From positions 4,650,001 to 4,714,000 of the forward strand of contig NZ_AP022593.1 in NCBI RefSeq assembly GCF_010731815.2: a stretch of 64,000 nt of DNA, read 5' to 3'. Below are positions 29,345-36,774 of this stretch, in pieces; the stretch's first letter is position 1, and every line of letters begins with the position of its first letter. Below the pieces are notes generated by a model. That model was not told the origin of the DNA. It made no database searches and saw only the letters and a program-made list of their open reading frames with translations. The DNA comes from Mycolicibacterium arabiense (lineage in GTDB: Bacteria; Actinomycetota; Actinomycetes; Mycobacteriales; Mycobacteriaceae). The position numbers and the translations under genes are program-made.

Positions 29345-30775
29345 ATGACCCAGCCTGACACAGCCCAGGAGCAACAGGAGCAACCTCAGCTCAAACGCGT
29401 GATGGGGCCGGGCCTGCTTCTGCTGTTCATCGTCGGCGACATCCTGGGCACCGGCGTCTACGCACTCACCGGTCAGGTGGCCGCCGAAGTCGGTGGCGCG
29501 GCCTGGCTTCCGTTCCTGGTGGCGTTCTTGATCGCCACCGTCACCGCGTTCAGCTACCTCGAGCTGGTGACGAAGTACCCCCAGGCCGCAGGCGCTGCGC
29601 TCTACGCACACAAGGCTTTCGGGGTCCAGTTCGTCACGTTCCTGGTGGCGTTCATCGTGATGTGCTCCGGCATCACCTCGGCATCCACCGCGTCGCGGTT
29701 CTTCGCGTCCAACTTCTTCACCGCCTTCGACATCGACTGGGGCAAGACCGGAATCGTCGTCATGGCACTGCTGTTCATGGCGCTCATCGCGGCAGTGAAC
29801 CTGCGCGGTGTCGGTGAGAGCGTCAAGCTGAACGTCGTCCTCACCATCGTGGAGATCACCGGCCTGCTGCTCGTGATCGGCGTGGGCTTCTGGGCGTTCA
29901 CCGGCGGCGCCGACGTGGACTTCTCCCGCGTGGTCGCCTTCGAGACCGCCGAGGACAAGAACGTCTTCCTCGCCGTCACCGCGGCTACGTCGCTCGCGTT
30001 CTTCGCGATGGTGGGCTTCGAGGACTCGGTGAACATGGCCGAGGAGACCAAGGATCCCGTCCGCTTCTTCCCCAAGGTGCTGCTGACCGGACTCGGCATC
30101 GCAGGCGTCGTCTACGTGGTGGTCGCCATCGTCGCGGTGGCCCTGGTTCCGGTGGGGACGCTGGAGGCCAGTGAGACTCCGCTCGTCGAGGTCGTCAAGG
30201 CCGGTGCGCCCAACCTGCCCATCGAGACCATCCTGCCGTTCATCTCGATGTTCGCGGTATCGAACACGGCGCTGATCAACATGCTCATGGCCAGCCGGTT
30301 GATCTACGGCATGTCCCGCCAGCACGTCCTGCCGCCGGTGCTCGGCCTGGTGCACCCGAAGAGCCGCGCGCCGTGGGTGGCGATCCTGTTCACCACGCTG
30401 ATCGCCTTCGGCCTCATCTTCTACGTGACGGCGTTCGCGAACAGCAGCGCCATATCGGTGCTCGGCGGCACGACGTCACTGCTGCTGTTGGCGGTGTTCG
30501 CGATGGTCAACGTGGCCGTGCTGGTGCTGCGCCGCGACGTCCGCGCCACCGGCGGGCACTTCAAGACGCCGACGGTGCTGCCGGTCATCGGCTGCGCCGC
30601 GTCGCTGTACCTGGTGCTGCCCTTCTCCGGCAGACCCGCTCAGCAGTACCTGCTGGCCGGCATCCTCATGCTCATCGGCATCGGGCTGTTCGGACTCACC
30701 ATGCTGATCAACAGGCAGCTCGGCATCCGCGACGCGGGGATCAGGGATCCAAAGAATCTGGGCGAGGCTCCGTAG
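29345..30775 (+). CDS. APC-family amino acid transporter
   Basis: 476 residues with about 12 membrane helices. TM1 reads LLLLFIVGDILGTGVYALTG, containing the GxGI/V-type APC motif; FFAMVGFEDSVNMAEETKDP is the TM6-loop signature. CGGAGG lies 6 bases before ATG 29345. It is probably an amino acid or polyamine importer or exchanger; the substrate cannot be read. Its 3' end overlaps the convergent relZ gene by 35 bp. Confidence 0.9.
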   Translation: MTQPDTAQEQQEQPQLKRVMGPGLLLLFIVGDILGTGVYALTGQVAAEVGGAAWLPFLVAFLIATVTAFSYLELVTKYPQAAGAALYAHKAFGVQFVTFLVAFIVMCSGITSASTASRFFASNFFTAFDIDWGKTGIVVMALLFMALIAAVNLRGVGESVKLNVVLTIVEITGLLLVIGVGFWAFTGGADVDFSRVVAFETAEDKNVFLAVTAATSLAFFAMVGFEDSVNMAEETKDPVRFFPKVLLTGLGIAGVVYVVVAIVAVALVPVGTLEASETPLVEVVKAGAPNLPIETILPFISMFAVSNTALINMLMASRLIYGMSRQHVLPPVLGLVHPKSRAPWVAILFTTLIAFGLIFYVTAFANSSAISVLGGTTSLLLLAVFAMVNVAVLVLRRDVRATGGHFKTPTVLPVIGCAASLYLVLPFSGRPAQQYLLAGILMLIGIGLFGLTMLINRQLGIRDAGIRDPKNLGEAP

Positions 30776-32510
30776 CCGTATTCGAAGTGGCCAAGCCCGC
30801 ACGCAACCGGTCGAACCTGTTCTGCAGCAACTCCCTTCGGTGCTCGTTGCCGTGCAGGTGTAAATACCGGTCTTCGAACACGGCGAGCAGCGCGTCGTCC
30901 AGGCGTCGCACCGCGCCTGCGGGATAGCGGTAGTCCATCGCGCGGTTGACCGCATCCTCGTCGACCCCGTCGAGGACCGCCGTCAGTTCGTCGAGCCGCG
31001 TGATGCCGAGTTCGAGCAGCAGCCCGGAGATCCAGCGGTAGTGGTCGGTGCGCGACCACCCGGCGTCGGCATACCGGTTCCCGAGGTAGGTCGCGAGCAC
31101 GGGGGTGGCGATCCGTGGATCCGACGAGTCGTCGTCGGTGTCGTCACGGTCGACCATGGCCACGCGCAGCCGTTCCCGGATGGCGGTGAACTCGCTGTCG
31201 GCGAGTTCGAGCAGACCGGCGGCGAGGGTGAAGCGGCGATCGAGGTCGGGTGCATGCTCGGCGGGGATCGACCCCTTGTAGCGGATGTCGTGCTCGAACT
31301 CGGCCCACGCGTGCTGCAGGACGGTGCGGACCTGGATCGAGGCGGGCTGCTGCTCGCCCTCGACGCCGACCAGCAGGTGCCGGCTGGCGTAGCCCCACCT
31401 GCCCTCGCGCGCCGTCTCCAGACCCATGTCCCTGTCGTCGAGCAGCATCATCTCGTCGGCCAGCAGGCGTGCGACGGTGTCGACGTCCTCGCGCAGGTAC
31501 GTGATGACGCGCAGCCCCACCTGATCGGTGATCTCGGCGAGCGGGTCGGTGTAGAGCGGCTGTCCGTCCACCATTTGGCCGGCCTTGGCCGCGAACGACT
31601 CGACGCTCTTGGTGCGCGCCGTGATGTTCAGGTAGTTGATGCCCGCCTCGTCGAGCAGGGAGGTCACCATCTCGAGGTAGTGATCCGTGGCGACGACCAG
31701 GGCCGGCCGGCGCGCCTGGTACTCCGCGACCGCGGTCTGCTCGGCGGGCACGGTCTGCGCGCCGCGCTGCGGATCGAGGTCGGCAGGCAGGGTGGGCGTC
31801 ACGATGCAGCCGGTGTCGACGTCGCCGTAAATGGTGACGTCGTCGGGCCGGCACTCGAAGAACAGCGCGACGTACGCGCACACCACGGCGTCCACCGGGT
31901 CCTCCGCGCGACGCAGTTCGCTCTTCTTGGTTGCGGTCTCGACCGATTGACGCAGCTCGCGCCAGGCGTCGGAGTCGCGCACGTGCAGCGGCGGGTCGGC
32001 GTGTCGAAGTCCCTCGACGAGGTCGACCAGGCGGAGCAGTTCGGACTGCAACTGCTCGAAGCTGCGGCCGGTCTTCGCCTTGTACTTCAGCGTGCGGCCC
32101 AGCCGGAACAGCGCGACCGTCGCCGAGTGCGGGAAGACCTCGAGCGCACGCCGCGGGGTGGAGGAGTTGGGGTCGAGGTCGAGGTGCAGCGCGTCGGCCA
32201 GCCGTGCGCCCCTGGTGCCGTTCGCGAACTCCGGCTTGCCGGTGTTGGCCGGGTGCGTCCCGGCGTGGAACGCCTGGAAGTCCCGGTTCAGCGCGGCCTC
32301 GGCAGGCCGGTTGCCCGTCGCGTTGCGCACGATCAGAGGGGCGTCGATGCCGACCAGGCAATCGTCACCGGTGAACGGCGCGAGCGCGTCGAGGATGTCG
32401 GCGTCGTCCGTGCGTGCCGACAGGTGCAGCAGGGTCCCCGATGCGTCCAGAACCGCGACACCGGTCGGCTGGCGTTCACCCCAGGCGAGGTCGAGTCCGA
32501 CGAAGTACAC
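30741..32510 (-). CDS. relZ: RNase HII-like/(p)ppGpp synthetase fusion RelZ
   Basis: 589 residues from GTG 32510 (GTG 32528 is an alternative). Residues 1 to about 250 are a DUF429 nuclease-like domain: VYFVGLDLAWGERQPTGVAV, GIDAPLIV, ALEVFPHSA. About residues 270-450 form a RelA/SpoT synthetase: YLNITARTKSVESFAAKAG, DQVGLRVITYL, GYASRHLLVG, and IQVRTVLQHAWAEFEHDIRYK. No HD hydrolase, TGS or ACT domain is present. This architecture matches M. smegmatis RelZ (MS_RHII-RSD), a dual RNase HII and (p)ppGpp/pGpp synthetase linked to R-loop and stress responses. In M. tuberculosis Rv0776c keeps only about the first half. It is divergent from purB by about 40 bp. Confidence 0.92.
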   Translation of the reverse strand: MYFVGLDLAWGERQPTGVAVLDASGTLLHLSARTDDADILDALAPFTGDDCLVGIDAPLIVRNATGNRPAEAALNRDFQAFHAGTHPANTGKPEFANGTRGARLADALHLDLDPNSSTPRRALEVFPHSATVALFRLGRTLKYKAKTGRSFEQLQSELLRLVDLVEGLRHADPPLHVRDSDAWRELRQSVETATKKSELRRAEDPVDAVVCAYVALFFECRPDDVTIYGDVDTGCIVTPTLPADLDPQRGAQTVPAEQTAVAEYQARRPALVVATDHYLEMVTSLLDEAGINYLNITARTKSVESFAAKAGQMVDGQPLYTDPLAEITDQVGLRVITYLREDVDTVARLLADEMMLLDDRDMGLETAREGRWGYASRHLLVGVEGEQQPASIQVRTVLQHAWAEFEHDIRYKGSIPAEHAPDLDRRFTLAAGLLELADSEFTAIRERLRVAMVDRDDTDDDSSDPRIATPVLATYLGNRYADAGWSRTDHYRWISGLLLELGITRLDELTAVLDGVDEDAVNRAMDYRYPAGAVRRLDDALLAVFEDRYLHLHGNEHRRELLQNRFDRLRAGLATSNTATEPRPDSLDP

Positions 32511-32536
32511 AGGGGTAGCTTGCCTCACCTGGGCCG

Positions 32537-32542
32537 TAAGCT
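32537..32542 (+). promoter_or_regulatory. Leaderless promoter of purB
   Basis: TAAGCT, 8 bases, then GTG 32551; no ribosome site. It lies inside the 40-bp space shared with relZ. Confidence 0.6.
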
Positions 32543-32550
32543 GTGTGTCC

Positions 32551-33969
32551 GTGACGATTCCCAATGTGCTGGCGAACAGGTACGCGAGCGAGGAGATGCG
32601 CGCGATCTGGTCGCCCGAGGCGAAGATCGTCGCGGAGCGGCGACTGTGGCTGGCGGTACTGCGCGCGCAGGCCGAACTGGGCGTCGCGGTGCCCGACGGC
32701 GTGGTCGACGACTACGAACGGGTGATCGACGACGTCGACCTCGCCTCGATCGCCGAGCGCGAGCGCGTGACCCGTCACGACGTGAAGGCCCGCATCGAGG
32801 AGTTCAACGCGCTGGCCGGCCACGAACACGTCCACAAGGGCATGACGAGCCGCGACCTCACCGAGAACGTCGAGCAGCTGCAGATCCGGCGCTCGCTCGA
32901 AGTCGTGCACGCCCACGGCGTGGCCGTGGTCGCGCGGCTGGCCGAGCGTGCGGTGCAGTACCGCGACGTCGTGATGGCCGGGCGGTCGCACAACGTGGCG
33001 GCGCAGGCCACGACGCTGGGCAAGCGCTTCGCCTCGGCGGCCGAGGAGACGATGCTCGCGCTCACGCGCATCGCCGAGCTGATCGAGCGCTACCCGCTGC
33101 GCGGGATCAAGGGCCCGATGGGCACGGCGCAGGACATGCTCGACCTGTTCGACGGCGACACCGCGCGGCTGGCCGAACTCGAACACCGCGTCGCCGAATT
33201 CCTGGGCTTCGGAACGACGTTCACCAGCGTCGGCCAGGTCTACCCGCGCTCGCTGGACCACGAGGTGCTCTCGGCGCTGGTGCAGTTCGGCGCAGGGCCC
33301 TCGTCGTTCGCCCACACCATCCGGCTGATGGCCGGGCACGAACTCGTCACCGAGGGCTTCGCTCCCGGCCAGGTGGGATCGTCGGCGATGCCGCACAAGA
33401 TGAACACCCGCTCCTGCGAGCGCGTCAACGGTCTGCAGGTCGTGCTGCGCGGATACGGCTCCATGGCCGCCGAACTCGCAGGCGCGCAGTGGAACGAAGG
33501 TGACGTCTTCTGCTCGGTGGTGCGCCGCGTCGCGCTGCCCGACGCGTTCTTCGCCGTCGACGGACAGACCGAGACGTTCCTGACCGTCCTCGACGAATTC
33601 GGGGCCTACCCCGCCGTCATCCAGCGCGAGCTGGACCGCTACCTGCCGTTCCTGGCGACGACCCGCCTGCTCATCGCGGCGGTGCGCGCAGGCGTGGGAC
33701 GCGAGGCCGCCCACGAGGTGATCAAGGAACACGCCGTCGCCGTCGCACTTGCCATGCGCGAGCAGGGATCCGAGCCGGACCTGCTCGACAGGTTGGCCGC
33801 CGACCAGCGACTGCCGTTGGACCGTGACGAGTTGGTCGCCGCGCTGGCCGACAAGGAAGCATTCACCGGAGCGGCTGCCGCACAGGTCGATTCGGTCGTC
33901 GCCCAGGTGGAGCGCCTGGTCGACCAGTTCCCCGAGGCGGCCAGGTACACCTCGGGCGACATCTTGTGA
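32551..33969 (+). CDS. purB: Adenylosuccinate lyase PurB
   Basis: 472 residues, identical in length to M. tuberculosis PurB. Fumarase/aspartase superfamily: signature loop [23 protein letters not shown] holds the catalytic Ser, and [14 protein letters not shown] and [17 protein letters not shown] carry the active-site His residues. It cleaves SAICAR to AICAR and adenylosuccinate to AMP. The stop overlaps cyp126 (GTGA), so the two are co-transcribed. Confidence 0.97.
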
Positions 33970-35162
33970 GTCTCGCGGGAACCGACTTCACCGACCTGAA
34001 CAACTTCGCGTCGGGGTTCCCACACGAGCTGTTCGCCGTGCACCGTTGCGAGGCGCCGGTGTACTGGCACGAACCCACCGAGCACACCCCGGACGGCGAG
34101 GGCTTCTGGTCGGTCGCCACGTACGCCGAAACCCTAACGGTGCTGCGTGATCCGGAGACCTACTCGTCGGTGACGGGCGGCGACCGCCCCTACGGCGGGA
34201 CGCTGCTGCAGGACCTCTCCATCGCGGGCCAGGTGCTCAACATGATGGACGATCCCAAGCACTCCCAGCTCCGTCGGCTGGTGTCCTCGGGCCTGACGCC
34301 GCGGATGATCCGCCGCGTCGAAGACGATCTGCGCGCCCGGACGCGTCGTCTGCTCGACGGTGTCGTCCCCGACGAACCGTTCGACTTCCTGGTGGACATC
34401 GCAGCCGAACTGCCCATGCAGATGATCTGCATCCTGCTCGGAGTGCCGGAGTCCGAACGGCATTGGCTGTTCCACGCCATCGAGCCGCAGTTCGACCTGG
34501 GGCGCACGGCCAGCGAGGACGCCAGCGCCCGGATGTACGCCTACGGCCAATCGCTGATCGCCCAGAAGCGTGCGGCGCCGACCGACGACATGCTGTCGGT
34601 GGTGGCCAACGCGCAGTCCGACTCCGGTGATCCGGCACTCACCGAGTTGGAGCTGTACCTGTTCTTCAGCCTGCTGTTCTCTGCGGGCGCGGAGACCACG
34701 CGCAACGCCGTCGCCGGTGGGCTGCTTGCGCTCATCGAGCACAACCTGGTGGGCACCCTGCGGCACTCATTGGACTCGCTGCCCGTCGCGGTCGAGGAGA
34801 TGGTGCGGTGGACGTCCCCGTCGCCCTCGAAGCGCCGCACCGCCACGCGCTCCTGCACCCTCGGCGGCTGCGAGATCGAGGCCGGGCAGAAGGTGCAGAT
34901 CTGGGAGGGATCGGCGAACCGCGACGCCTCGGTGTTCGCCGACGCCGACTCGTTCGACATGACCCGCACGCCCAACCCGCACCTCGGCTTCGGCCAGGGC
35001 GTGCACTACTGCCTGGGGGCGAACCTCGCGCGACTCGAGCTGCGCGTGTTGTTCGAGGAGCTGCTGACCCGGTTCTCGTCGGCCCGGCTGGTCGAGCCGG
35101 TCGAGTGGACGCGCAGCAACCGCCACACCGGCCTGCGGCACATGGTCGTCGCCCTCACGTGA
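33966..35162 (+). CDS. cyp126: Cytochrome P450 CYP126
   Basis: 398 residues. [34 protein letters not shown]-helix [34 protein letters not shown], haem loop [18 protein letters not shown]. Very close to M. tuberculosis CYP126 (Rv0778) with the same purB partner; the middle section is about 10 residues shorter. Its natural substrate is unknown. GTG 33966 overlaps the purB stop by 4 bases. The linkage of a P450 to a purine gene has long suggested a purine-like ligand, but this is unproved. Confidence 0.94.
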
Positions 35163-35209
35163 TTCGTGCACCCGCAGGCGCGCTCACCGCGCCTCAGCGT
35201 GCACGAATC
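35161..35209. repeat. 49-bp palindromic element A
   Basis: Outer arms GATTCGTGCAC (35161-35171) and GTGCACGAATC (35199-35209) are perfect; inner arms AGGCGCG (35176-35182) and CGCGCCT (35188-35194) are also perfect around CTCAC. It starts on the cyp126 stop and encodes the last residues of the DUF559 gene. It could fold into a long hairpin and stop transcription of both. Confidence 0.8.
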
Positions 35210-36054
35210 GCGCGTCGCACTTCGGCGACCACGCGCTCCGGGTACTCCACGAGGTCCAGCCACGTGAACCGTAAAACCTGGTACCCCGCCAACGCGATCG
35301 CGTTCTGCTTGCTCCGGTCGCGCTGGAAGACGTCGGCGTCGGTATGGAACGCGAAACCGTCGATCTCGATGGCGACCTTGGCTTCGCGGAAGACGACGTC
35401 GACTTCATAGCCGGCAATGCGCTGATTGGTTCGCCAACCCGTGATGCCCGCCGCGCGCAGCAGACGTCCCATCACGCGTTCGGCCTCCGAGCGTGCCCCG
35501 TCGTCGGCTGCCTGCAGAAGGCGTCGTGCCGCCGGCGACCCGTGCCGGCCCTTGTTCCGTAGGTGCGCCGTCCACAGGGCACCTAGCTGCGTATGGCGTT
35601 GCAGCGCCTGATCCATCAGCTGGGCTCCGCCACCTCGCCGGACTGCTGCCTCCACGACGGTGAGCGGCAGGACGGTGACGCGAAGACCGTTGCGCTCGGT
35701 GACGTCGGCAGGCCGCAGATCGCGGCGACGCAGACGCGTGCCCGAGCGCTTCGTGTGGTTGCTGACCCGCGGCACGGTGACCTCGACGACGTCGGGCGCG
35801 AACTTCGTGAGGTGCAACCACCACGCGGCGGCGAGCCCACTCGCCACGGCCCGTTCGCCGTTTCCCCATACCGCGGCCCGGATCCTCGCGGCGTCGGTGA
35901 AGGGACGATCGTCGACGAAGTACACGCCCATCGAGCATCGCCGCCAGTGCCCGGACTTGACGAGGCGATTCACCGCATACCGGCTGAGCCCGCAGGATCG
36001 CGCCTGGCCAAGCGTGATGACGCCGTCGTGGTCGCGTAGGAAGTCGTCAAGCAC
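35194..36054 (-). CDS. AbiEi-like wHTH fused to DUF559 endonuclease-like domain
   Basis: 286 residues. The first 80 resemble the AbiEi antitoxin N-terminal winged helix (DHDGVITLGQARSCGLSRYAVNRLVKSGHW, then GVYFVDDRP). The C-terminal 110 residues are DUF559, a Vsr/PD-(D/E)xK-like fold: YEVDVVFREAKVAIEIDGFAFHT supplies D-x(n)-E-x-K-type residues, then FQRDRSKQNAIALAGYQVLRFTW. No AbiEii toxin partner is adjacent. The gene is framed by two related 49-bp palindromes at 35161 and 36099. Cellular role unknown; defence, DNA repair or a mobile cassette are possible. Confidence 0.82.
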   Translation of the reverse strand: MLDDFLRDHDGVITLGQARSCGLSRYAVNRLVKSGHWRRCSMGVYFVDDRPFTDAARIRAAVWGNGERAVASGLAAAWWLHLTKFAPDVVEVTVPRVSNHTKRSGTRLRRRDLRPADVTERNGLRVTVLPLTVVEAAVRRGGGAQLMDQALQRHTQLGALWTAHLRNKGRHGSPAARRLLQAADDGARSEAERVMGRLLRAAGITGWRTNQRIAGYEVDVVFREAKVAIEIDGFAFHTDADVFQRDRSKQNAIALAGYQVLRFTWLDLVEYPERVVAEVRRAIRAR

Positions 36055-36098
36055 ACCTCAACAGACGCGACGGCCGCCTCCCCGGTTCCATCCCCAGC

Positions 36099-36147
36099 GA
36101 TTCGTGCACGTTGAGGCGCGCCTGCCGCAACGGAGCGTGCACAAATC
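36099..36147. repeat. 49-bp palindromic element B
   Basis: Same length and layout as element A: GATTCGTGCAC (36099-36109) and GTGCACAAATC (36137-36147), one mismatch between arms; AGGCGCG at 36114-36120. Its second inner arm is degenerate. It lies 45 bp before the DUF559 start and just after the next gene's stop. Confidence 0.75.
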
Positions 36148-36153
36148 GCGCGG

Positions 36154-36774
36154 TTACTTGCGGCGGCGGGCGAGGCCTGCGCTGCGCAACTCGAGGTCGG
36201 CGAGGCCGCGGATTGCGATCGCATCGTCGCGCCGCCACGCTCCCACCGGATCGATGCTCACGGCCGCGAGCTTGCCCAGCGGCCGGTTGGCCAGCGCGCG
36301 CAACGCCAGCAGCTGCTCGCCCGCGGGGGTGGCGGCCAGGGTTAGCGACGTCCACTTGCGCCGGGCGAACCGCACCCGCAGGAACAGCCACGGCATCGCG
36401 ATGAACAGGATCGGCGGCGCGGCGACGGCCAGGCCCAGCACGACCGCCAGCCAGGTCGCGGTCGTGTCGAGGTTGGCCCCGGCGCCTGCGATGCCCAGTG
36501 CGGCCTCGCTGGCTGCGCGCAGCGGTTCGGCCAGCGCGTCGCCGACCAGCGGGAAGTCGTCGGCGTTATCACCGGCATCGCTGAGGTTGCCCGCGACGCC
36601 GTTGGCGCCCTCGTTCACCTGCCTGCCGACTTCGGCGATCGTCGCGACGGCGGAGTGCACCGCCAGCCCGATCGACACCCAGATGGCACTCCACAGCAGC
36701 ACCACGATGTCGCTGACCAGCTGGCGGGCGAGACGGACCGGGGTGGTCGCGTACGGCACATAGCGAGAACTCAT
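36154..36774 (-). CDS. Membrane protein (Rv0779c)
   Basis: 206 residues. Two hydrophobic stretches: LARQLVSDIVVLLWSAIWVSIGLAV (about residues 15-40) and TTATWLAVVLGLAVAAPPILFIA (about 104-127), with an Asp/Ala/Gly-rich loop between them and a basic cytoplasmic tail. Same length and place as Rv0779c, divergent from purC. Function unknown. Confidence 0.85.
   Translation of the reverse strand: MSSRYVPYATTPVRLARQLVSDIVVLLWSAIWVSIGLAVHSAVATIAEVGRQVNEGANGVAGNLSDAGDNADDFPLVGDALAEPLRAASEAALGIAGAGANLDTTATWLAVVLGLAVAAPPILFIAMPWLFLRVRFARRKWTSLTLAATPAGEQLLALRALANRPLGKLAAVSIDPVGAWRRDDAIAIRGLADLELRSAGLARRRK

Follow-up and report, generated by a model that had tools for sequence, protein, structure and literature searches.

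The described systems closest to the one analysed here are the repetitive extragenic palindromes with their associated tyrosine transposases (REP/RAYT, also TnpA-REP or REPtrons) and the TIRtrons. As set out in parts of two papers, genes of these systems are flanked by palindromes and each gene type has its own family of dispersed intergenic palindromes, often beside stop codons, with few genes and many palindromes in the case of REP/RAYT (PMC3733652, PMC6006769). We examined a stretch of 64,000 nucleotides from Mycolicibacterium arabiense (NZ_AP022593.1, positions 4,650,001 to 4,714,000; the window), in which a gene for an AbiEi-DUF559 nuclease-like protein is bracketed by two palindromes. 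In our assessment, this palindrome-gene-palindrome unit is probably a selfish or semi-domesticated element encoding a homodimeric site-specific endonuclease related to the EDxHD homing endonucleases. The window family resembles REP/RAYT, as far as those parts of the papers describe it, in being flanked by a palindrome whose type-matched copies are dispersed, with genes few and palindromes many. It differs in its enzyme, which joins AbiEi DNA-binding domains to a nuclease of the Vsr/EDxHD fold and is not an HUH transposase, and in its palindrome, which is longer (53 bp, and 41–67 bp in distant relatives) and lacks a GTAG foot in the consensus drawn from the half-sites of 143 elements. A Pfam scan of the window protein found no Y1 (HUH) transposase domain, and because this transposase is absent we do not regard the family as a member of REP/RAYT; Actinobacteridae are described, in the part of the source concerned, as carrying only subclass 1.1 of that transposase superfamily (PMC6006769). 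The original prediction, made from the letters of the window, had likened the arrangement to REP/RAYT with a different enzyme family, and this comparison is supported by flanking palindromes as a trait of the gene family and by type-matched dispersed copies. Titles and abstracts of mostly openly licensed literature yielded no published link between DUF559 or AbiEi-nuclease genes and palindromes, and within that literature the palindrome-nuclease system appears to be undescribed.

The gene (35194–36054, minus strand) has a GTG start and encodes 286 amino acids. Elements of 49 bp had been predicted on either side of it and were found in place, although with their flanks each is 53 bp long: palindrome A (35159–35211), the downstream element, with outer block GTGCAC and inner block AGGCG/CGCCT, and palindrome B (36097–36149), the upstream element, situated 43–95 bp ahead of the gene start. 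Both dyads have the form GYGATTCGTGCAC-N27-GTGCACGAATCRC. The outer arms had been described as the same in both elements, which is exact for A, whereas the right arm of B carries one mismatch (GTGCACAAATC); likewise, the supposedly common inner arm AGGCGCG occurs on both sides of A and only on the left side of B, the right side of which reads CGCAACG. The TGA stop of the gene (35194–35196) lies inside A together with the last codons, as had been noted. A genome-wide search for the two arms separated by 27 bases, in which up to 3 of the 22 arm bases could differ, had been proposed as a check at the outset and recovered 11 places compared with none for a reversed control, and these palindromes are therefore not a product of chance.

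Flanking palindromes were found to be a trait of the gene family. Close relatives (E ≤ 1e-30) occurred in 67 of 148 genomes drawn from the genus, for which at most 16 candidates per genome were scored. Following duplicate removal, 94 distinct loci were retained (88 from 66 of the sampled genomes and six from named contigs, with a gene fragment in genome G008 excluded), and 53-bp dyads were sought near each gene irrespective of sequence, using one score threshold. An upstream dyad reached the threshold at 86 of the 94 genes, starting between -97 and -93 (mostly near -95) in 69 of the 82 that could be counted by place; one, at -21, is probably due to chance. Downstream dyads reached the threshold at 58 of the 94, and 47 of these start exactly 15 bp ahead of the gene end, set against a background of 5 in 188 gene-body windows. 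Arm types varied widely among loci (GTGCAC, CGGCGC, CGGCGT, CGGTGT, GTGTGC, GTGGAG and others), and the two flanks of a gene agreed with each other: over the 55 loci with both palindromes, 12.25 of 13 outer bases were shared versus 10.02 when shuffled (maximum 10.73 in 2000 shuffles), and 9.95 of 11 inner bases versus 6.07 (maximum 6.78 in 2000).

The trait extends to more distant DUF559 genes. In a first set of 72 loci (12 of 84 were left out), 24 had a palindrome in the zone upstream of the gene and 19 in the zone downstream, compared with 2/72, 0/72 and 2/69 in three control zones. Among 124 distant genes from Mycobacteriaceae and other Actinomycetota families (kept from 153 profile-matched loci on the basis of full flanks, profile coverage, absence of duplicates and less than 50% identity), 48 had an upstream and downstream pair of the same type, versus 0–2 when flanks were recombined among genes (20 shuffles). 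Arms of the distant palindromes (for instance CGAGCAGACGCAAAAGCCCCC, AACGTGAAGTTGTG and a 67-bp CATGATCACCGCGACTGG pair) are unlike those of the window. The matched palindromes of a Tsukamurella gene (43% identity) are 41 bp long, and their centre, CCGCTSAGCGG, resembles that of the window family. A link between DUF559 genes and flanking palindromes, which the original prediction had proposed to test, was found in both the close and the distant sets.

The window genome contains at least four further distant DUF559 genes (L056, L057, L332 and L469), each with its own matched palindromes, which differ in sequence from those of the window gene (e.g. AGCAGACG... and CGAGACTGC...), and several palindrome-gene units therefore coexist in one genome. 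It also holds a second close gene copy (L051/L052, C2:5023266-5024159), 72% identical over most of its length and split over two frames, with palindromes of types GTGGAA and GTGGAT.

The encoded protein is laid out as a winged helix-turn-helix (wHTH) domain (recognition residues 25–30), an AbiEi middle domain (reading loop 97–100) and an EDxHD/Vsr-fold nuclease domain (residues ~188–286). Pfam matches comprised AbiEi_4 at residues 2–45 (3e-10) and DUF559/MTES_1575 at residues ~188–283 (1e-10), with weak matches to DUF2726, Vsr and Mrr_cat, and a PADLOC AbiEi model matched residues 8–185 (6e-27), in agreement with the predicted combination of an antitoxin-type winged helix and a Vsr/DUF559 domain in one gene. 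The C-terminal domain matches PDB 3hrl, an endonuclease-like protein of the same Vsr/DUF559/MTES_1575 nuclease domain family (1e-11), and PDB 3r3p, a mobile intron protein that we take to be I-Bth0305I (1.4e-6). Residues D219, E230 and D246 are invariant, and E192 and D232 near-invariant, across 59 aligned proteins; together with the profile matches to 3r3p and 3hrl, the invariant residues point to a catalytic domain of the EDxHD/Vsr fold. Ratios of dN/dS were 0.07–0.13 in eight chosen gene pairs, indicating purifying selection, an argument for functional retention of the protein. A profile of the protein family found matches in 190 of the 200 genomes sampled from the order, representing 55 of 60 genera. 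In a search for carriage by phages or plasmids, 50,697 phage records gave no match and 72,556 plasmid records gave 6.

Two further known systems share parts of this protein. According to part of a review (PMC3943268), the target on which the EDxHD enzyme I-Bth0305I dimerises is nearly 60 bp long, about the length of the 53-bp site in the window. The nuclease domain of this enzyme, taken as PDB 3r3p, is related to that of the window protein (1.4e-6). Unlike EDxHD homing endonucleases, the window gene is associated with no intron or intein and lies between two complete sites, interrupting neither, and copies of the site are dispersed. The second likeness is to the AbiE type IV toxin-antitoxin system, since the N-terminal 185 residues match models of AbiEi, a protein that binds inverted repeats near its promoter. 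The window gene departs from AbiE in that a nuclease domain is fused, the unit of ~990 bp leaves no room for a partner gene, a second palindrome lies downstream, and many others occur elsewhere. Inside the palindrome-bracketed unit we found neither a second plausible gene (the neighbouring genes were not scanned with an AbiEii profile) nor a transposase gene.

Residues of the two DNA-binding modules covary with the bases of the palindrome. This analysis used 80 of the 94 loci, namely those with an upstream palindrome at threshold and in place and a full-length frame without inner stops, and positions refer to the 26-bp half-site. Inner positions coupled with the wHTH recognition helix (Y26 with position 22, z 13.5; R25 with 20, z 10.9; N29 with 19, z 7.6; R30 with 23, z 6.9) and outer positions with the AbiEi middle-domain loop (N99 with 13, z 9.8, and with 11, z 9.0; H100 with 12, z 6.8). 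Covariation of residues 284–286 is trivial because they are encoded by the downstream palindrome. We then predicted the blocks of each gene from whichever other protein agreed best with it at four residues; to limit shared ancestry, proteins with 70% or more overall identity were barred as predictors. Residues 97–100 predicted the outer hexamer in 57 of 80 cases (rest of the protein, 9; nuclease domain, 5), and residues 25, 26, 29 and 30 predicted the inner tetramer in 35 of 80 (rest of the protein, 4; nuclease domain, 7). With the identity limit at 80%, the corresponding values were 62 and 44 of 80, compared to maxima of 35 and 16 for random sets of four variable residues (100 draws). Particular pairings could be read directly: the helix SRHAVNRR occurs with AGGAG (4/5) and SRQAVYRR with NGTAA, and the loop R-N/D-S-H-G-R occurs with CGGCGC, R-x-S-N-G-R with CGGCGT, and R-V-S-N-H/F/Y with GTGCAC. 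Recognition by the protein of its own palindrome through a residue code is strongly supported by this covariation. The nuclease domain was also considered as the palindrome reader and rejected (partial Mantel correlations of -0.07 for the outer and 0.07 for the inner block, besides the 5/80 and 7/80 predictions above).

The original prediction regarded the palindromes as hairpins that the protein might bind, nick or protect. Conservation and residue coupling instead suggest that double-stranded half-sites are read by a dimer. Over 143 flanking elements, symmetry was 0.83–1.0 at outer pairs 8–13 and 0.85–0.94 at pairs 22–24, compared to 0.43–0.66 at spacer pairs 15–18 and 0.32 at pair 25; because a stem selected to pair would not be expected to lose symmetry in the spacer and at pair 25, a dimer binding site is favoured over a hairpin. 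As a point against this reading, the window genome mixes two inner variants, GGCGCG and GTTGCG, even inside single palindromes.

Copies of the palindromes dispersed in a genome follow the type of its resident gene. GTGCAC palindromes were counted at up to 1 mismatch in the 148 genomes, bearing in mind that the flanks of the gene itself supply up to 2 copies. All 14 genomes with a GTGCAC-type gene had at least 2 copies and 12 had at least 3, whereas among 50 genomes with a gene of another type, six had 1 or 2 copies and none had 3 or more. The remaining 84 genomes lack a mapped gene, and of these only G008, a 70%-complete assembly in which a fragment of the gene lies at the end of a contig, had GTGCAC palindromes (14 copies). 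Copies of the CGGCGC type were present in 40 of the 148 genomes, up to a maximum of 42, and 16 genomes had 5 or more: 11 with a matching gene, two with a gene of another type and three with no gene. The association between dispersed copies and gene type is strong and imperfect, with more exceptions for CGGCGC than for GTGCAC. Among the matches listed, the inner block of dispersed copies also looked genome-specific by eye, resembling that of the resident gene. As in REP systems, then, a flanked gene is accompanied by type-matched dispersed copies, apart from the exception genomes named here and below, and the scenario of scattered palindromes unlinked to DUF559 genes, raised at the outset as a refutation, fails given these copies and the flanking trait.

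In CGGCGC-rich genomes without a close gene, a search for a diverged one (G043, G098, G130, G071, G014 and G040) returned only DUF559 genes of 25–33% identity, around which no GATTY-arm palindrome was detected at the threshold used. Gene loss explains the CGGCGC palindromes of G130, though not those of G043 and G098. The latter genomes, with 11 and 13 such palindromes, respectively, may hold relics of a lost gene or be served by a more distant one.

Ten solo palindromes were examined in the window genome, nine of the window arm type and one CGGCGC. Based on heuristic open reading frame (ORF) calls, each is either intergenic or runs at most 28 bp into the end of a gene; four lie between convergent genes, three between co-directional genes and three between divergent genes. 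The three between divergent gene starts are compatible with the protein being a transcription regulator with a retained nuclease fold, autoregulated from the upstream palindrome and acting on dispersed palindromes as operators of a regulon. That account would also fit the AbiEi similarity over residues 8–185 and the more frequent retention of upstream than downstream palindromes (86 versus 58 of 94). We judge it unlikely, as the other seven solos lie between convergent ends or co-directional genes, D219, E230 and D246 are invariant in the 59 aligned proteins, and sites differ among species. Solo palindromes do adjoin stop codons at several junctions, as ordinary terminators or hairpins at gene ends would, with the gene a bystander. 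As a full explanation this is refuted and carries almost no weight, given that palindrome sequence covaries with protein residues, pairing is low at the spacer pairs and pair 25, and palindrome type follows the resident gene; a terminator side effect is possible.

Comparison of junctions among species indicated turnover of the palindromes (the gene names glpK, aldo-keto reductase, ROK, rplJ, cyp126 and Rv0779c used here are presumed assignments). On the left, the unit adjoins a cytochrome P450 gene (33966–35162, plus strand; by position presumably cyp126/Rv0778), the stop codon of which overlaps the outer end of A. The right neighbour, convergent with it, encodes what we take to be an Rv0779c-like protein (36154–36774, minus strand), with its stop codon 4 bp past the end of B. 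A homologue of the latter is present in 144 of the 148 genus genomes and was used as a marker to define empty and filled sites. At the cyp126-Rv0779c junction, genome G069 has the palindrome-gene-palindrome unit, and the same place in its relative G130 is taken by a solo palindrome whose flanks share 57/60 and 60/60 bases with those of the unit. The left half of the solo is slightly nearer the left element of G069 (2 versus 3 differences) and the right half nearer the right element (2 versus 8 differences, the 8 being inflated by the one-base shortness of the left element). The convergent glpK/aldo-keto reductase junction was represented in 17 of 30 fetched loci: eight have a full palindrome (five types), one a half and eight none (the full palindrome at L382 and the half relic at L394 were read from sequence rather than called by script), and none of the 17 holds the gene. 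The palindrome there is of the type carried by a resident gene in G000, G070, G146, G125, G081 and G068 (the half), and not in G145; G042 has no close gene and G008 a gene fragment only. Among 30 loci fetched for the ROK/rplJ junction, solos occur in G000 and G055 and differ in type, whereas in G136, G093 and G098 the junction contains a distant DUF559 gene whose palindromes are of another kind. Such sites thus gain, lose or exchange palindromes. Empty and solo sites in relatives, which the original prediction had asked after, do therefore exist at the cyp126-Rv0779c and glpK junctions; its refuting case, a gene conserved at the locus in all relatives without palindromes, does not hold, as the close gene is present in 67 of 148 genomes and palindrome sequence at the same locus varies by species. 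Arms at the Rv0779c locus fall into 12 classes.

The G069 and G130 pair, in which each half of the solo is nearer the corresponding element (the 2 versus 8 comparison being partly a length artefact), and the homing EDxHD type of the nuclease domain are both consistent with pure homing. Under such a scheme, the nuclease cuts solo palindromes as empty sites, repair copies the unit in, other solos are scars of recombination between copies, like solo long terminal repeats, and the palindromes themselves are immobile. We regard this as possible yet doubtful. Two complete sites flank the unit, whereas homing insertion destroys its site; solos are far more numerous than genes, with a single type reaching 42 palindromes in one genome; and the glpK junctions have a full palindrome in eight cases and the gene in none.

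Returning to the endonuclease element that we favour, each 26-bp half-site would be read twice, with the wHTH helix (residues 25–30) contacting the inner block (positions 19–24) and the AbiEi middle-domain loop (residues 97–100) the outer block (positions 8–14). The nuclease domains of the putative dimer would then sit near the dyad (GCG-STSAS-CGC). A cut or nick at the dyad followed by host repair could copy or remove palindromes with or without the gene, leaving solo palindromes at gene ends and keeping same-type copies matched to the resident protein. The upstream palindrome, which is the more frequently retained of the two, may be the operator of the gene itself. Homodimerisation, dyad cutting, autoregulation and spread of palindromes via repair of enzyme-made breaks are all steps that we infer from sequence patterns; copying of palindromes by the enzyme, among the roles first suggested for it, is plausible. 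We are evenly divided over a broader proposal, in which an unrelated enzyme would sustain a REP-like economy in Actinobacteria. A large family of nucleases with long sites, two reading modules and a readable code (wHTH, AbiEi loop and Vsr/EDxHD domain), each member bracketed by and co-evolving with its own palindrome, would itself spread and homogenise the dispersed copies by cutting double-stranded DNA at the dyad, the breaks being repaired by recombination. An ordinary insertion sequence or miniature inverted-repeat transposable element (MITE) family with palindromic ends, moved by another transposase, would likewise display short dispersed copies and a matched palindrome at each end. We think this very improbable, as the DUF559 gene is the only gene inside and its residues specify the palindrome, and full units are not amplified within genomes, each of which has 1–3 close matches whose types mostly differ. 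The likelihoods we attach to the alternatives overlap with that of the favoured explanation and do not sum to one.

Several observations weigh against the favoured explanation. Palindromes were below threshold downstream of 36 of the 94 close genes, and 76 of the 124 distant genes, including most from families outside the order, had no matched pair at threshold. The dyad is not uniformly symmetric at the proposed contacts, since inner pairs 19–21 were only 0.64–0.73 symmetric and outer pair 2 only 0.62, and H171, which lies outside both modules, coupled with positions 8 (z 7.5) and 9 (z 6.3). Five or more CGGCGC copies occur in genomes with no close gene (G043, G098 and G130) or with a gene of another type (G084 and G145); in 10 genomes, a CGGCGC gene is accompanied by fewer than five copies. 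Target-site duplication was inconsistent by eye at the glpK junction, where TAG is present on both sides in one species group and fails in others. At the Rv0779c locus, inheritance is largely vertical, with the gene mostly following Rv0779c (r = 0.765, 49 loci), and the gene is therefore not highly mobile at present. Moreover, it is unexplained how a host survives a nuclease with 10–40 target sites, and how a solo arrives at a new site; host tolerance might rest on nicks in place of cuts, on tight repression, or on activity confined to replicating or foreign DNA. The support, consisting of co-occurrence and matching, a recognition code, conserved catalytic residues and differences in presence between species, is computational throughout.

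AbiEi-DUF559 proteins abound in mycobacteria and related bacteria, and gain here a likely substrate and a testable function. The results suggest that enzymes of a second, unrelated class also came to be dedicated to spreading palindromes. The residue-to-base code, which can be read from sequence alone, makes specificity predictable for many members of the close family, and would be of interest both to research on protein-DNA recognition and to users of site-specific nucleases.

Hybrid palindromes in Mycolicibacterium sediminis (L033) were considered as mixed half-sites or half exchange; this was rejected, because an element with an rve integrase core has inserted close to the centre of each palindrome. 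Two copies of the element in opposite orientation (L033:1500-5260; one copy was scanned and has the rve integrase core) lie near the centres of both palindromes flanking a DUF559 gene, and a 15-bp piece of the palindrome core appears by eye to be repeated at the junctions. The palindromes may be insertion targets; REPs are targets for some insertion sequences. Elsewhere in the window, a gene at 30741–32564 (minus strand) encodes DUF429 fused to a RelA_SpoT domain, a protein that presumably resembles the mycobacterial RelZ-type alarmone synthetase.

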